NCBI RefSeq assembly: GCF_018199995.1
Contig: NZ_CP073578.1
Coordinates: forward strand, 2,108,001 to 2,172,000
DNA length: 64,000 nt
Origin: Photobacterium sp. GJ3
GTDB lineage: Bacteria; Pseudomonadota; Gammaproteobacteria; Enterobacterales; Vibrionaceae
Direction: 5' to 3'
The translations under genes were made by a program, and so were the position numbers. Position 1 is the stretch's first letter. Each line of letters opens with the position of its first letter. Shown in pieces: positions 3,206 through 44,011 of the stretch. The notes beneath the pieces are model-generated. The model did no database searches. It was not told where the DNA came from and worked only from the letters and a program-made list of their open reading frames with translations.

Positions 3206-3418
3206 ATGAAAAACCTTATCGGGGAACCGCGTCATTCCGTGGTAGCACGGCGGGATTTTTTCTGTCGGCGGCAGCGTTCTGAGCAATAGATGACCTGATG
3301 CCAGCAATCGGCCCATTTTCTTCGCCAGGTAAAAGGTCGTAAACAAACCGGGCAGATTTTCTCAGGCAATGGGCGCTGGGTCATCTCGGAGTATCCTGAA
3401 ACCGGTGTCTGGCTTTAA
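3206..3418 (+). pseudogene. Small open frame with two in-frame stops, probable remnant
   Basis: An ATG at 3206 has a strong AAGGAG seven bases upstream and opens [20 protein letters not shown]. The frame meets TAG at 3287 and TGA at 3296, then runs on in the same frame as a protein-like stretch ending [14 protein letters not shown] and TAA at 3416-3418, overlapping the end of the convergent phosphoesterase gene. Either a 27-residue peptide is made or this is a decayed gene of about 70 codons. I do not recognise the family. Confidence 0.35.
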
Positions 3419-4176
3419 ATCCAGACCAACTGATCGCTGTCTTTTTCTCGGAGAAACGCATATTCCTGAAACAGCCCGAGCACTTCCCCGCCCCGGCGGT
3501 ATTTCAAAATCATCCCCCGATCTCCCATCGACATCGCACCATCAATATAAATCCGATTACCGCACACTTTCGGTTTTAAGCCTGTGACAATGTTATGGCC
3601 CATCACCACCGCATCAATATGCGCGATAGCCATCTCGGGTTCATGCAGAAATGCTTCGCGATCCCAGATCGCATCCGTCAACGCTTCGTCACTCAGCTGT
3701 CCATCGTCGCAGCAATGCGTAAAATGCTGCCAGTCGAACGGTGAAGGGACCGCCGCATGGACCAGACCAATCTGATGACCATTAATTTGCAGGGTATAAC
3801 AAACAGGCAGTGCCTGCGCAAACCGTAAAGATGCCTGTAATGCCTCAGGATCGCAGTGCTCATGCCAACGGCCACCGTTCATCAGCCATAAGGCCAGATG
3901 ATCCGGATTCCGGACTGCACGGCATGCCATATGCTCATGATTCCCCTGAATGGCATAGACTGCAGGATTGTTCTGGACGAACGCCAGTATTGCCATGGAG
4001 TCTGGACCCCGGTCAATCAGATCCCCCAGAATAAACAGCCGATCCCTGATCTGTCCGTTGTGTGGATACCTGAATCCGACTTTCTCCAGAACATCCAGCA
4101 TCAGTTGATACTGACCGTGTGGATCCGACAGAAAATAAATGTCGTACTGGATATCAAGTTGCAGATATTCATGCAT
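3415..4176 (-). CDS. Calcineurin-like metallophosphoesterase (PrpA/ApaH-like)
   Basis: The metal-binding motifs of the PPP/calcineurin-like family appear in order: SDPHGQ, GDLIDRGPDS, GNHEHM, LVHAAVPS and MGHNI. This predicts a dinuclear-metal phosphatase resembling bacterial serine/threonine phosphatases (PrpA/PphA) or diadenosine-tetraphosphatase relatives. The substrate cannot be assigned. I place the start at the ATG at 4176 (MHEYLQLDIQYDIYFLSD), giving about 253 residues, because the domain begins right after it. The frame extends upstream to 4380 but that part is not family-like. It is cytosolic, with no signal peptide. Confidence 0.85.
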   Translation of the reverse strand: MHEYLQLDIQYDIYFLSDPHGQYQLMLDVLEKVGFRYPHNGQIRDRLFILGDLIDRGPDSMAILAFVQNNPAVYAIQGNHEHMACRAVRNPDHLALWLMNGGRWHEHCDPEALQASLRFAQALPVCYTLQINGHQIGLVHAAVPSPFDWQHFTHCCDDGQLSDEALTDAIWDREAFLHEPEMAIAHIDAVVMGHNIVTGLKPKVCGNRIYIDGAMSMGDRGMILKYRRGGEVLGLFQEYAFLREKDSDQLVWI

Positions 4177-38488: not shown

Positions 38489-39409
38489 GTGAGTAACGGC
38501 ATGACAGCGATCCAAGAAGAATTAATCCATCTGGTGAATCGGCACATTGATGGGCCGGGACTGACTGACACAGTCCTGCCGGAATTGAAACTGATGCACA
38601 GCACAGAAAACAGCGCCTGTTCCCCAACGATTTACAGCCCGATGTTGTGCTTACTGGTGCAGGGTGAAAAACGTATTACGGCAGGTGCGCGTGAATTGAT
38701 GCTGACTGCCGGGGATTTCTTGCTGGTGCCTGTGATGATGCCTGTGGTCGGCGAAATCCTTCGTGCTTCAGAGGAGCAACCTTACATTGGCATCAGCATT
38801 TCGCTGGATCTCAAAGAACTGACCGATTTGCTGATTGCCATGAAAGAGCCGCCTGAGGCCATCACCAAATGTCCCTACTGCATCAGAACTGTGGCTTCTG
38901 ATGAGGACATGCTGGTGGTGTTCAAACGTTTTCTGAGTCTGCTTGACCATCCGGAAGACATTGCGATTATGCTGCCACTGCTCAAACGGGAACTCATGTA
39001 TCGGCTGCTCAAAAGCCCGGCAGGCGTACAGCTTCGCCAGTTCCTGCTTCGGGACACGCAGGCCAACCGCATCAGCAAAGTTGTTGAAATGATTCAGCAG
39101 CGATACCGGGAACCCATCCGGGTTCAGGAGCTGGCCGATATGGTGCACATGAGCCAGTCTTCCCTGTTCAACGCCTTCAAAGCCGTGACGTCCATGACGC
39201 CGCTGCAGTTTCAGAAACAGCTTCGCCTCAATGAAGCCCGCCGGATCATGCTGCAAGACGGCCTTGACGCTTCCGCCGCCAGTTATCGGGTCGGCTATGA
39301 AAGCCCGTCCCACTTCAACCGGGAATACAGCCGGCTATTTGGCATCCCGCCCATGACAGACATCAGCCGCCTGCGAGGCCACAAGCCGCTGATGGAAGAC
39401 CGGATTTAA
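38489..39409 (+). CDS. AraC-family transcriptional regulator
   Basis: 306 residues. The N-terminal AraC_N cupin domain (TIYSPMLCLLVQGEKRITAG, ELMLTAGDFLLVPVMMPVVG) is followed by two C-terminal HTH motifs (IRVQELADMVHMSQSSLFNA; AASYRVGYESPSHFNREYSR). It resembles YqhC-type regulators. GTG at 38489 follows GAGGG at good spacing and is preferred over ATG at 38501. Divergent from the RND operon with paired direct repeats between, so it probably controls efflux expression. Confidence 0.92.
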   Translation: MSNGMTAIQEELIHLVNRHIDGPGLTDTVLPELKLMHSTENSACSPTIYSPMLCLLVQGEKRITAGARELMLTAGDFLLVPVMMPVVGEILRASEEQPYIGISISLDLKELTDLLIAMKEPPEAITKCPYCIRTVASDEDMLVVFKRFLSLLDHPEDIAIMLPLLKRELMYRLLKSPAGVQLRQFLLRDTQANRISKVVEMIQQRYREPIRVQELADMVHMSQSSLFNAFKAVTSMTPLQFQKQLRLNEARRIMLQDGLDASAASYRVGYESPSHFNREYSRLFGIPPMTDISRLRGHKPLMEDRI

Positions 39410-39784
39410 TCCAAGCGCCTGACCGGAGCAATTCAGACAAACTGATTGTTCCGGTCTCTCACCGCCTTATCTTCCACTCTCCAACCTCTGAGTCACAACC
39501 TGCGCTATCCGGACTTATGATTCGGGCAGAATCAGTTTTCAATCAACACGTTTCCTTTGAAAGTCACACACTCACCACGCCCCATAAACAAAGGGGACAT
39601 CGCCTATAAAACCCTTACAAATCAGAATAATGCCCAATAAATCCTCAATATATACAGTCATATAGACTAAACTTTTCTTGTATATACAGATCACAATCTA
39701 AACATATCGATCTACATCACCATATGAAACAAATGTATTATGAGTGCGTTTGATTATGATTTTAATTCTTATTTGAGGTAAACG
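39410..39784 (+). promoter_or_regulatory. Promoter region of the radical SAM operon with TATATACAG repeats
   Basis: 375 bp, very A+T-rich after 39600. TATATACAG occurs at 39649-39657 and 39681-39689, 32 bp apart (three helical turns), each followed by (A)TCA. Possible activator sites. GAGG at 39774 with spacing of about 7 serves the GTG start at 39785. No gene seen. Confidence 0.45.
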
Positions 39785-40795
39785 GTGTCTGATCAGTTGT
39801 TTAAAATCGAGATATCGCCTAGCACGCTATCAATTATTACGACATACCAGTGCACAGCTGCTTGTGCTGATTGCTGTTTCGAATGCAGTCCTTCCATCAC
39901 AAAATCATTAAGTTACGCTGAGATGAGTCAGTTTATTGATGATGCGATTCAGGAGCATCCTTCTATTCGTCTCGTCGTTTTTACTGGCGGCGAATGCTTC
40001 ATGCTGAAGGACAAGCTCTTTTCATTAATTACCAAGTGCACTCAACTTGGGCTCGCAACACGCTGTGTGACCAACGGCTACTGGGCGAAACGACCAGAGA
40101 AAGCCATGGAGTATGCACAAAAACTGAAACAGGCCGGTGTGAATGAAATCAACCTGAGTACTGGCCTTGATCACCAGCAGTGGGTTTCAGAAAACACCAT
40201 TGTGAATGCGGTCACAGCGCTCGTAAGTCAATCTATTTTCACCTTGGTGACACTGGAAACCGATACTCAAACATCGGATTGCTTTGAGTCTTTTCACACC
40301 AACCCGAAAATTAAACAATTGCAGGGAAACAATTTATTTGAACTCAGAGTGAACTCATGGATGAGTTTTCATGAAACAAGCGAAGAACGCGCGCTTGTCA
40401 CTCAGGTCAATGGACTCGAAAAAGGTTGCGATAATTTATTTGATGTCATGGTTGCAACGCCAGATAAAGAAATCACAGCCTGCTGCGGATTAACTGTCTC
40501 TCATATTCACGAAATGAAGTTATCACACATTCAGGACATTGGCAGTTACAAACGAGAACAGGAATATGATTTTTTAAAACTCTGGATCAAAATTGATGGC
40601 CCTTACAACATTCTGAAAAAACTAATAGGAGATCGTCATGAACGCTTAGATAAAATCACACATCCATGTCAGGCTTGCGCAATTATCCATAATGAACCAG
40701 ACATGAGAGCACGACTCATCGAAATATACCCTGACAATATTGTTCGCGTATTAAACACTTATCACCTGATCAAAGCGACCCAAGAATACTTATGA
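39785..40795 (+). CDS. Radical SAM protein with Cys-rich C-terminal region
   Basis: 336 residues, GTG start. The [4Fe-4S] motif is C23xxxC27xxC30 (YQCTAACADC), with extra Cys at 31 and 34. GGE (68-70) in VVFTGGECF is the SAM amino-group motif, and residues to about 200 form a partial TIM barrel. C215, C233, C234 and C295xxC298 (HPCQACAIIH) resemble a SPASM/Twitch auxiliary-cluster domain, as in peptide-modifying enzymes. It overlaps the next gene by ATGA, so tight coupling suggests that gene product is its substrate or partner. A+T-richer than flanks. Exact family not identified. Confidence 0.85.
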   Translation: MSDQLFKIEISPSTLSIITTYQCTAACADCCFECSPSITKSLSYAEMSQFIDDAIQEHPSIRLVVFTGGECFMLKDKLFSLITKCTQLGLATRCVTNGYWAKRPEKAMEYAQKLKQAGVNEINLSTGLDHQQWVSENTIVNAVTALVSQSIFTLVTLETDTQTSDCFESFHTNPKIKQLQGNNLFELRVNSWMSFHETSEERALVTQVNGLEKGCDNLFDVMVATPDKEITACCGLTVSHIHEMKLSHIQDIGSYKREQEYDFLKLWIKIDGPYNILKKLIGDRHERLDKITHPCQACAIIHNEPDMRARLIEIYPDNIVRVLNTYHLIKATQEYL

Positions 40796-41841
40796 AAAAA
40801 ACAAATAAGTTTACAACCTATGGTGTTATAGGAACTTTGGCGATCCCGTCTATTCCAGCCTCTGCTTTAAATTCAGAACCTGATTCCGAAAGAATTTTCG
40901 GCAAGCCTAGGAGTATCTTATCCGAGACTGAAAATGGTCATCTTACTCCCAGACTCAAAATTGAGCTGAGAAAGTCTCATCTCCCTCAAGCAGTCTGGGC
41001 TGACATTGAGAAGCTTGATCAAATCTGGAGCCAGATTAAAAGTTTGTCAGACTATCAGAATTACGCAAAAAGCTTTAATTTTCATTCGATGAAGGATGAG
41101 GAGTTGTCCCAGACTTATGAACACCAGCTCCTGACAGCTTTGGCAGATCCTTATCTGGAACAATTAGTTGCCATCGAAAACTTTGAACAACTCTATCTGG
41201 AACTCATCGATCGTGGCCTTCTGAATCCAGAGGCAGAAGCCAAATTAGCTCAAAATATCTCTCGGGCATTGGAAGGGAATCAAAGCTTACGGAAAGAGAT
41301 TCAATCAACAATATCGAAACAACTGACGAAAGATATCACACAATCGGATTACGCTTATTTACTGAATACGGTCAAAAGTCAGTCCAATGAACAGGTTGTT
41401 GCCGCGGTGCCTGTCCTGGTTGTTGCTGCTGCAGCGGTTGCTGGTGCTGTCGTGGTTATTGCCGCGGCAGGTGCATATGTTGTCACAAAAGCAGCTTTTT
41501 CCGTGAGTGGCGGTGACGGAGGTGTCGTCAATGCAACAGCTCGAGGAGGGCATGGTGGTGGCGGCAGTAACTGTACGTCATGCCACCAGGCTTCAAGAGC
41601 CTCTCATATCTCAAGTCAGACAGTCAAAGAAAACCATTTGGTTTTGTCTGATGTCTCTTCTTATTTTAATTCACCGGTATTAGCACACCAATCATTTATA
41701 AAAATGAAGCAATCTGAATCAAAAGCAGCAATTGATGCTGCCCTCAACCTTGGTTTAATCACCATCCCAGATGGTGAATATGATCAAGTCATGGCAGCCA
41801 TGAATCGGATTATACAAAGGCAATATGAGGTATTACAATGA
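40792..41841 (+). CDS. Putative substrate/partner of the radical SAM enzyme: Gly-rich and CTSCH motif protein
   Basis: 349 residues with an unusual plan. Residues 1-26 look like an export signal (MKKTNKFTTYGVIGTLAIPS, cleavage after ASA). Residues 30-200 are charged and helical. Residues 202-236 are an Ala/Val hydrophobic segment. Then come GGDGG (240-244), GGHGGGGSN (252-260) and C261-T-S-C264-H265, followed by a soluble tail. CxxCH is also the heme-c attachment motif, so it could be a membrane-anchored cytochrome; a radical-SAM-modified core peptide is the other reading. It overlaps both neighbours by ATGA. No family recognised. Confidence 0.7.
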   Translation: MKKTNKFTTYGVIGTLAIPSIPASALNSEPDSERIFGKPRSILSETENGHLTPRLKIELRKSHLPQAVWADIEKLDQIWSQIKSLSDYQNYAKSFNFHSMKDEELSQTYEHQLLTALADPYLEQLVAIENFEQLYLELIDRGLLNPEAEAKLAQNISRALEGNQSLRKEIQSTISKQLTKDITQSDYAYLLNTVKSQSNEQVVAAVPVLVVAAAAVAGAVVVIAAAGAYVVTKAAFSVSGGDGGVVNATARGGHGGGGSNCTSCHQASRASHISSQTVKENHLVLSDVSSYFNSPVLAHQSFIKMKQSESKAAIDAALNLGLITIPDGEYDQVMAAMNRIIQRQYEVLQ

Positions 41842-42320
41842 CCTACCCCGTTGATGCCCATATATCCACAATAGTCATTCTCAGCATTATTTTTATTGGG
41901 GGAGCAATTTTAAGTCTGACACCCGGATTAAACTGGATCACAATCTCTGTGGCCATCTTGATTCTGGCATTTTATGCTATTTCAATGCTACAACTTCTGA
42001 CGTCTAAAGTGGAGATTCAAGATCATCATCTTTTCGTCGGCGGTAAAATCTGGAAATACCAAACAATGCTCAACAATATTGAGTCCATTGAAAGCCAGGA
42101 AAATTCTAAGTCAGACATTTCCATTCGTTATAGAACCAATGGCATCAGTTTGTTTGGATACAATGCGGGAAGCTTCAGAAGTAAAAACGGCGAAAAGGTT
42201 TTCATGATGACCAATAAAAAACCTTATGCCGTTGTCTCCCTGAAAGAAGGAAAATATAAATACATCATTATTTCTGCTGACGCCGAAAATTTAAAACGCT
42301 TAAAATCATTATCGTTTTAA
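41838..42320 (+). CDS. Small membrane protein with bacterial PH-like domain
   Basis: 160 residues. Two membrane helices (TIVILSIIFIGGAILSL and WITISVAILILAFYAISMLQ) are followed by a cytosolic domain: VEIQDHHLFVGGKIWKYQTM, GYNAGSFRSKNGEKVFMMTN and YAVVSLKEGKYKYIIISADA. The pattern fits bacterial PH domains (bPH/YdbT-like). It is third gene of the operon (ATGA overlap with gene two), so it may be an assembly or immunity-like membrane partner, which is inference. A hairpin terminator follows. Confidence 0.75.
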   Translation: MTYPVDAHISTIVILSIIFIGGAILSLTPGLNWITISVAILILAFYAISMLQLLTSKVEIQDHHLFVGGKIWKYQTMLNNIESIESQENSKSDISIRYRTNGISLFGYNAGSFRSKNGEKVFMMTNKKPYAVVSLKEGKYKYIIISADAENLKRLKSLSF

Positions 42321-42347
42321 AGCACAACTCTATTGATGACAAAGATA

Positions 42348-42371
42348 GTGGCAGATAAAACTGCCATTTTA
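42348..42371 (+). terminator. Intrinsic terminator of the radical SAM operon
   Basis: TGGCAG (42349-42354) pairs with CTGCCA (42361-42366) around an A-rich loop, followed by TTTT; it lies 28 bp after the operon's last stop. Confidence 0.8.
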
Positions 42372-42455
42372 AAACGATCGAAGTTGTGATTCAGGCCGTT
42401 CCTTGCGTACAGGACGCCTTAAATACTTACAAGTTGTCCAGGAAGAAAGATAGCA

Positions 42456-42482
42456 AGAAAAATGGCAGCCGAGGCTGCCATT
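42456..42482 (-). terminator. Intrinsic terminator of yghU
   Basis: On the minus strand AATGGCAGC and GCTGCCATT flank a CTCG-like loop and are followed by TTTTTC. It faces the radical SAM operon terminator. Confidence 0.85.
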
Positions 42483-42504: not shown

Positions 42505-43362
42505 TTACGGCCGCTGCTTGAGTGCTGCGTCAATATCTGCCGCACTGTGGCGCTCTTCAATCGCTTCCCAGGCTTCACCGGAAGTTTTATTCACGATGCG
42601 GCCCCGCTGGACGGCCGGACGCTCATAAATCATTTTTGCCCAGCGTTGCAGGTGCTGATAACTGCCGGCATCCAGAAACTCAGCGGCATTATAAGCCAGC
42701 CCCAGAACCAGATTGCCGTACCACGGCCAAATGGCGATATCTGCAATACTGAATGTTTCACCCGCAATATAGGTATTTTCTGCCAGTTGTTTGTCGAGCA
42801 AATCGAGCTGGCGTTTCGCTTCCATCGTAAAGCGATTAATAGGATATTCGAATTTTTCCGGGGCATAGGCATAGAAGTGACCAAAACCACCGCCCAGATA
42901 TGGCGCTGAACCTTGCAGCCAGAACAGCCAGTTCAGCACTTGCGTGCGAGCTGCATGATCCTGAGGCAGTAGCTGACCGAACTTCTCCGCCAGATACAGC
43001 AGAATCGAACCCGACTCAAAGACATTCACCGGAGTACTGCCCGAGCGATCCACCAGCGCCGGAATCTTAGAGTTTGGATTCACCGCCACAAAACCAGATG
43101 AAAACTGATCGCCGTCACCAATTCTGATCAAATGGGCATCGTATTCAGCACCCGATTCTCCCAGCGCCAGCAACTCTTCCAGCATGATGGTGATTTTCTG
43201 GCCATTGGGTGTCCCCATGGAATAGAGCTGCAATGGATGCTGCCCGACTGGCAATTCCCGCTCAAAACGAGCACCGGCTTCCGGGCGGTTGATACTGGCC
43301 CACTCGCCGCCGTTTTCTGCATCCATCGTCCAGACTTTCGGGGGTACGTATGCGTTCGACAT
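42505..43362 (-). CDS. yghU: Glutathione-dependent disulfide-bond oxidoreductase YghU
   Basis: 285 residues from the ATG at 43362, preceded by AAGGTG. It has a GST fold with an N-terminal extension: YVPPKVWTMDAENGGEWASI, the thioredoxin-like part LQLYSMGTPNGQKITIMLEE, PNSKIPALVD, FESGSILLYLAEKF, and a helical domain with GGFGHFYAYAPEK and YIAGETFSIADIAIWPW. This is the YghU group, which binds two GSH and reduces disulfides, with the active Thr/Asn in GTPNGQK. Cytosolic, monocistronic. A GTG start at 43371 is less likely. Confidence 0.95.
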   Translation of the reverse strand: MSNAYVPPKVWTMDAENGGEWASINRPEAGARFERELPVGQHPLQLYSMGTPNGQKITIMLEELLALGESGAEYDAHLIRIGDGDQFSSGFVAVNPNSKIPALVDRSGSTPVNVFESGSILLYLAEKFGQLLPQDHAARTQVLNWLFWLQGSAPYLGGGFGHFYAYAPEKFEYPINRFTMEAKRQLDLLDKQLAENTYIAGETFSIADIAIWPWYGNLVLGLAYNAAEFLDAGSYQHLQRWAKMIYERPAVQRGRIVNKTSGEAWEAIEERHSAADIDAALKQRP

Positions 43363-44011
43363 CTCTTTCACCTTTTGTGATATTCATCCTGATCAACAGG
43401 GCACCACTCTGACCGAATTCTCCGGTCAGAGCCACCCCGGCATTAGACCGTTTGGTGATAAAAAATTTTCATTCAGTCCAGGCTGTTGTATGCGCTGAGC
43501 GGATGACATGAACTGCTCGCCATTCACACCCCATGGGCAGGCGCATCGTTTTCGCCCACTTGGATTCAGAAGCATTGCACTGTGAACATACCCGAGCCTG
43601 CTCTGAACGGGCAGCCTCGGGCTCACCCACTTCAGAGATGATGCATTGTCACCTTCAGGATGCATCATTTCCGGGGAACCCCTGAAACTTCTCTTTGATG
43701 ACCACCTCCAAAAATAAAAAACCATGAAAGACTGTTATTTTTCCCAACCGGGAACGCCCGACTTATCAGGCCTATGAACCAGAGACTGTCATTTATAACG
43801 ATTTCAACCAGAGATAAAATAAAACCTAAAAAATAGAATACGCATGAAATAATATTGACTCAAAACCCAACAAAAAGCGTTCATTTTTATTATTACGAGT
43901 AATATAAAAATAAACTTAATTAAACGTTCAATTAAAAAAGGAAACGCTCAAATATCACTGTCAACCCGAAAAATACCACATCTTTCATTCATTACACCCT
44001 ATTTCATTATT
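43363..44011 (+). other. Long intergenic region with three inverted repeats
   Basis: No convincing gene. Inverted repeats: CTCTGACCG/CGGTCAGAG (43407-43415 and 43423-43431), CCCGAGCCTGC/GCAGCCTCGGG with one mismatch (43591-43621), ATGATGCAT/ATGCATCAT (43638-43646 and 43660-43668). From 43720 onward the DNA is strongly A+T-rich and leads into the TRAP promoter. Confidence 0.5.

Follow-up and report, generated by a model that had tools for sequence, protein, structure and literature searches.

A three-gene cassette in a 64,000-nucleotide stretch of the Photobacterium sp. GJ3 genome (contig NZ_CP073578.1, positions 2,108,001 to 2,172,000; here called the window) encodes a radical S-adenosylmethionine (SAM) enzyme, a 349-residue protein, and a small membrane protein with a PH-like domain. 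The cassette is probably a mobile system of the type that makes ribosomally synthesized and post-translationally modified peptides (RiPPs), in which the middle protein carries a core with D-residues and yields an exported, membrane-active antibacterial toxin, and the PH protein gives protection, helps export, or does both. The enzyme is EpeE-like by sequence, by fold, and by an aligned hydrogen-donor cysteine, and it appears to be an epimerase with a new type of substrate and a new partner. An earlier note on this DNA had left the enzyme as one of unrecognised type, a view that the likeness to EpeE does not support. Full-text literature searches, as judged from titles and the openings of abstracts, gave no description of the three-gene system; they leave subscription papers mostly uncovered and are weak evidence of absence.

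The enzyme matches PF04055 (Radical SAM) above the cut-off, and the features that had been noticed in it (a CxxxCxxC core, GGE, and later cysteine pairs) are present as Cys23/Cys27/Cys30, TGGE, the adjacent Cys233 and Cys234, and a CxxC at Cys295/Cys298. Cys215, Cys233, Cys234, Cys295, and Cys298 align with YydG, and Cys234 is the aligned counterpart of Cys223, the proposed hydrogen donor of EpeE; the cysteine matching Cys223 is kept in all 18 rows of the alignment. The closest solved structure to the enzyme is that of EpeE, which is ahead by at least 4 Z units. A tree of 18 enzyme rows contains a seven-row clade, with support of 100/99, that comprises the window and the loci designated L025, L001, L023, L007, L021, and L026. 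A defense role of the viperin (pVip) kind was considered and rejected; the PADLOC match is weak (1.2e-8), extends over residues 19–119 of the enzyme only, and is poorer than that to YydG, and the partners tested gave nothing.

Within this clade, the linkage of the three genes exceeds chance, because enzyme and substrate genes occur together in seven of seven members and a small membrane protein is also present in six. The protein that adjoins the enzyme has 333–368 residues in all seven and is encoded downstream in six and upstream in L023. In sampled genomes, the enzyme was matched at E <= 1e-30 in 3 of 398 from the phylum, 2 of 394 from the order, and 4 of 369 from the class, the own genome being counted in each; the system is therefore rare and scattered. 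The earlier note had proposed co-occurrence as a check and had held that a second protein found widely without the enzyme would speak against its reading, and this is not the pattern in the samples. A profile of the substrate had matches in 2 of the 369 genomes of the class, each of which also encodes the enzyme; in G850 and G900, the remaining class genomes with an enzyme match, the enzyme is distant and no substrate was matched. The order to which G146 belongs was sampled with 151 genomes, of which one has an enzyme match at E <= 1e-60 and six match the profile of the substrate: (i) G146 has a full-length substrate together with the enzyme; (ii) G355 and G1209 retain C-terminal scraps; and (iii) G1147, G1148, and G1224 match in the core region only, and nine cassette proteins had no match at 1e-3 in the 3–5 kb around these regions. 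The interpretation that had been put forward from the window alone is partly supported: because the linkage is conserved in distant hosts, the roles of substrate for the middle gene and of membrane partner for the third gene are upheld. Further loci compared here come from a plasmid search with 14 records, 10 of which were inspected, one as a YydG control (L016), with H9, H11, H12, and H14 left out; from a scan of viral contigs with 12 loci, of which four (L033–L036) are short and generic matches; and from a scan of genome contigs with a single query sequence that gave one. Plasmid searches with the second and third proteins had no match but also missed the diverged homologues in L007, and their empty result is therefore weak.

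The window precursor comprises a signal at about residues 1–25 (by eye), the sequence RIFGKPRS (residues 34–41), a pro-region, a Val/Ala core at about residues 202–230 that falls in a hydrophobic segment (residues 198–239), a Gly-rich NCTSCH stretch, and a C-terminal tail. Its core has the highest fraction of Val, Ala, Asn, Ile, Gly, Thr, and Tyr among the 59 window open reading frames (ORFs) of at least 100 residues. Divergence among the clade substrates is high, and what they have in common is an N-terminal signal (by eye), a motif after it, a long hydrophobic Val/Ala-rich segment that lies between residues 190 and 258 in all seven, and a C-terminal tail. The motif, the pattern of which was defined after the sequences had been inspected, is found at residues 23–38, in the strict form R-[LIVK]-[FY]-G-x-P-x-S in six substrates and in relaxed form in all seven, L023 having the relaxed form. 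The signals are twin-arginine-like by eye in four substrates (L001, L007, L021, and L026) and plainer in the window; the Pfam TAT family matched the L026 substrate only, below the cut-off (0.0068), and had no match in those of the window, L001, L007, L021, L023, and L025. Across 24 enzyme loci, a count that excludes the control L016, 18 have an adjacent ORF on the same strand with a stretch in which Val, Ala, Asn, Ile, Gly, and Thr reach at least 0.75, as compared with 11 of 245 ORFs at distances above 1.5 kb; the count is 13 of 19 when six near-alike prophages are taken once. The six loci below this value are L015 (0.69), L022 (0.73), L024 (0.65), L042 (0.73), L043 (0.62), and L011 (0.42), where the ORF-overlap filter had removed the annotated precursor.

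The third protein had been described as two-helix and PH-like, and both terms hold: hydrophobic stretches at about residues 9–27 and 27–54 are consistent with two helices, and PF10882 (bPH_5) matches at 23.5 bits against a gathering cut-off of 22.5 (5.8e-5). The same family is above the cut-off in the L025 and L021 proteins and below it in those of L026 and L007. Among these five proteins, 14 of 20 ordered pairs match by tblastn at 1e-3, and all five have R...G...G...G-x-F after the two hydrophobic stretches. In G355 (L101, 3086–3814) what is left of the substrate is a scrap of its C-terminal tail; an intact PH gene (3272–3814; 31% to the L026 PH protein, 7e-20) comes after it, and the 6 kb compared have no enzyme match. 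A similar scrap in G1209 (L102, 2950–3441) accompanies a PH gene, recognised by eye, that is shortened too. An intact PH gene that outlasts enzyme and substrate behaves as expected of an immunity gene, although G355 is a single case. The nearest experimental parallel found for the role of the PH protein is the cluster for the leaderless bacteriocin EntDD14 (DdE/DdF), where PH-domain proteins are reported to be required for export, their loss leading to a toxic build-up of the peptide. In both systems a PH-domain protein is encoded beside the putative or known toxin, whereas EntDD14 is Gram-positive, leaderless, and unmodified, and DdE/DdF are likened to the window protein by their domain.

The cassette occurs in six viral contigs, L026–L031. 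In L026 and L027 phage genes lie on both sides, with a D tail gene before the cassette and a repressor-like gene after it; for L028 and L030 the repressor side was read, and L029 and L031 were recognised by tblastn of the cassette. In L032, a seventh viral contig, the same tail gene precedes an enzyme gene that is cut off by the contig end. The tail genes of L026 are 70% identical to those of Stenotrophomonas phage Smp131, an antitermination-Q-like gene (1.6e-4) lies near the cassette in the viral contig L025, and L007 is a plasmid record. PHROG had no match at E <= 0.01 for the substrate and PH proteins of the window or L026. In the prophage copy of L030 (4615–6861), the enzyme gene is broken by about 1.25 kb, and the substrate and PH genes are open.

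Within the window, the layout agrees with what the earlier note had read from it: ATGA overlaps at 40792 and 41838 join the three genes, all on the plus strand, and the cassette is richer in A+T than its surroundings, with a G+C content of 0.414 (39410–42330) versus 0.543 upstream and 0.497 downstream. The terminator placed after the cassette is a more mixed case, in that hairpins exist but the nearest is terminator-like on the minus strand and the plus-strand one comes only farther on (Table 1). The glutathione S-transferase gene on the right is convergent to the cassette. Of 52 genomes of the genus, 7 have the AraC gene of the left flank at E <= 1e-60 and 28 have the transferase. Besides the own genome, the two lie close together in six, being 111–178 bp apart in four and separated by five other genes in two. 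A similar GTGGCAG...CTGCCAC hairpin lies between the two flank genes, without a cassette, in four same-genus genomes; therefore at least one hairpin is probably part of the flanks. No convincing direct repeats were found at the cassette edges. The cassette was not seen in 35 same-genus genomes, where G019 has a distant enzyme and G030 a weak generic match. The five replacing genes at the AraC/transferase site (L082, 1313–6173; L083, 1306–6190) include in L082, by Pfam, an old-yellow-enzyme family oxidoreductase, a second AraC type, a flavodoxin, and a hydrolase, the fifth being hydrolase-like by eye. In another species of the genus (L024, 6498–7940), a distant enzyme stands with a 112-residue precursor that ends in an Ala/Val-rich core.

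Table 1. Features of the cassette and its surroundings (window coordinates)
Feature	Position	Strand	Remarks
Radical SAM enzyme gene	39785-40795	+	336 residues, GTG start
Exported substrate precursor gene	40792-41841	+	349 residues
Two-helix PH membrane protein gene	41838-42320	+	160 residues, motif RTNGISLFGYNAGSF; proposed self-protection or export partner
Val/Ala-rich core, substrate residues 202-230	41395-41481	+	proposed, inferred site of L-to-D epimerization
Hairpins 3' of the cassette	42349-42482		terminator-like on - (42349-42366) and on + (42461-42482)
Left flank, AraC-type regulator (PF06719)	38489-39409	+	outside the system
Right flank, glutathione S-transferase family (PF13410 + PF02798)	42505-43371	-	outside the system

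In the mechanism that we propose, the radical SAM enzyme would abstract the C-alpha hydrogen from residues in the Val/Ala core of the 349-residue precursor in the cytoplasm, and Cys234 would quench the radical from the opposite face to give D-residues. The precursor would then be exported via its N-terminal signal, and the hydrophobic D-containing core would be released or inserted into the membrane as an antibacterial, membrane-active toxin, with the two-helix PH protein shielding the producer and/or aiding export. The analysis establishes the gene linkage, the enzyme family, the aligned hydrogen-donor cysteine, the common precursor architecture, and the scattered, mobile occurrence, whereas epimerization of this core, release, toxicity, and immunity are predicted.

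A number of observations weigh against this proposal. (i) The enzyme scores 77.9 bits against a YydG equivalog cut-off of 300, and Asp210 of EpeE, which is mutated in 8ai6 and may not be a defining residue, is aligned with a non-Asp residue close to a gap. (ii) The structure model of the enzyme was built from five sequences and has a mean predicted local distance difference test value of 74.6; that of the substrate, with a confidence of 41.6, is uninformative. (iii) By tblastn among the loci compared, the window substrate reaches only L025 (1e-27), L023 (6e-4), and, within the L026 group, two members (about 6e-4 to 8e-4); the L007 and L021 substrates are joined via each other and the profile (from L021, 3e-11 to L007 and 9e-26 to L026), and the L001 substrate is linked by a single BLASTP comparison (9e-7). 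(iv) Alternation of bulky residues, assessed with 5000 shuffles in 14 cores picked by eye, had p < 0.05 in five (L025, 0.0004; L010, 0.001; L007, 0.007; L009, 0.022; L021, 0.023) and not in the other nine, among them the window core (p = 0.92), so that a polytheonamide-like beta-helix is unsupported for the window member. (v) No protease or ABC transporter gene is found among the window ORFs within the cassette. (vi) L001 lacks a PH gene, the small protein of L023 has a bPH_4 match only (0.013) and lacks the common motif, and the intact orphan PH gene of L101 is a single example. (vii) Matches to the SdpC toxin family are sub-threshold (0.069, 0.19, 0.20, and 0.22) and may reflect hydrophobic composition.

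It is unlikely, if worth weighing, that the same epimerase chemistry makes a product other than a toxin, namely an exported or membrane-anchored envelope protein with D-residues, which might, for example, serve prophages and plasmids in surface exclusion, the PH protein then being an assembly partner. Carriage of the cassette by the viral contigs L025 and L026–L031, the lack of a release protease, and the Cys-containing, lipoprotein-like signals (by eye) of the L001 and L010 substrates would all suit such a product. Against it, SdpI-family proteins accompany the enzyme in two relatives, immunity accounts more easily for the orphan PH gene, and in the PADLOC scan the enzyme core has only its weak viperin match, with none for the tested partners. 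That the enzyme introduces some other C-alpha modification into the middle protein, such as thioether (sactionine) or C–C crosslinks, is improbable. Sactisynthases, which likewise remove a C-alpha hydrogen, are among the radical SAM enzymes that have auxiliary clusters (PMC5682303 and PMC8326336). The window core is followed by NCTSC. However, the cysteines of the substrates vary (one in L021 and two in L026, none of them within the core), and a sactipeptide was rejected for this reason; both the lead of EpeE among solved structures and the invariant counterpart of its Cys223 point away from crosslinking. The earlier note had stressed the Gly-rich CTSCH part, and a CxxCH at residues 261–265 of a probably exported protein could indicate a c-type heme protein linked to redox biology, but a CxxCH-like motif is present in only two of the seven homologues (with CxxxCH spacing in L025) and absent in five. 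The stress on this part is therefore unsupported, and the highly implausible heme reading was rejected; what the substrates have in common is the motif after the signal, the Val/Ala core, and the C-terminal tail.

Short epipeptides and proteusins are both known to involve radical SAM peptide epimerases. The window enzyme resembles EpeE/YydG of the Bacillus subtilis epeXEPAB system in sequence, fold, and cysteine positions, including that of Cys223, whereas its score lies far below the equivalog cut-off, and its substrate is a 349-residue precursor rather than a short prepeptide of about 49 residues. The cassette also differs from the epipeptide locus and the L016 control in having no YydF-like, protease, or ABC transporter gene and an extra PH membrane protein. 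As in the proteusins (PoyA/PoyD, polytheonamide), several D-residues are plausible in the hydrophobic core. Asn-rich N-x-N cores and a methyltransferase are also seen among distant homologues, and the distant L011 precursor has a weak match to the NHLP-related TIGR04509 (0.0012, below the cut-off); the window precursor has no NHLP or Nif11 match, the mark of a proteusin leader, and a non-alternating core. An exported precursor with a hydrophobic segment is also found in the SDP system (SdpC and SdpI), and SdpI-family genes accompany the Thermus and Klebsiella homologues, whereas the window has a PH protein and not SdpI. Membership of the SdpC family (TIGR04032) was rejected, the window scoring 13 bits against a cut-off of 99.2 with none in the own genome, and the positive control B. 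subtilis being matched (1 of 14). Maturation of SDP uses SdpA/SdpB, according to PMC13343845.

In the wider family, a methyltransferase is found beside the enzyme in Thermus L010, Klebsiella L014, and Rhizobium L015 (Pfam MTS) and in Collinsella L013 (by annotation). The precursors of L010, L013, and L014 are Asn-rich with N-x-N, and the SdpI-family matches of L010 and L014 are above the cut-off. These plasmid loci (L010, 2599–6074; L014, 4904–8123; L013, 5240–8176; L015, 5992–8171) resemble small polytheonamide-style pathways. On a haloarchaeal plasmid (L012, 5440–7041), the same type of enzyme adjoins a 177-residue protein with a core that resembles that of L025 by eye. L043 (4170–6528) has a distant EpeE-like enzyme, a PqqD protein, and a 57-residue peptide with a pattern that we take to be lasso-precursor-like, possibly an epimerized lasso peptide. 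Larger radical SAM proteins occur near the EpeE-like enzyme in L022 (10458–12506; Radical_SAM and a sub-cut-off B12-binding match) and, alike by eye, in L015 (3049–4722). Serine hydrolases of the beta-lactamase family, which often act on D-residues, are encoded near L001 (10260–11618), L007 (6254–7564), and L010 (6248–7270) and may have a part in processing. With the L007 hydrolase as query, the own genome gave nothing at E <= 0.001, in a search run without a positive control, and the hydrolase is therefore not counted in the window system.

Taken more broadly, and tentatively, these loci may represent a new class of exported RiPP toxins, with protein-sized precursors that have an export signal, an RxFGxPxS-like motif, and a Val/Ala core epimerized by an EpeE-like enzyme, carried on prophages, plasmids, and small islands, with PH-domain or SdpI-like membrane proteins for protection, and with distant relatives from Thermus to a haloarchaeal plasmid. 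If the proposal for the window cassette is true, an exported substrate of about 350 residues in Gram-negative bacteria, carried on phages and a plasmid, would tie D-amino acid chemistry to protein export and to competition among mobile elements, and toxin self-protection would be suggested as a function of the two-helix PH membrane protein. The common motif and the aligned catalytic cysteine make the proposal directly testable.
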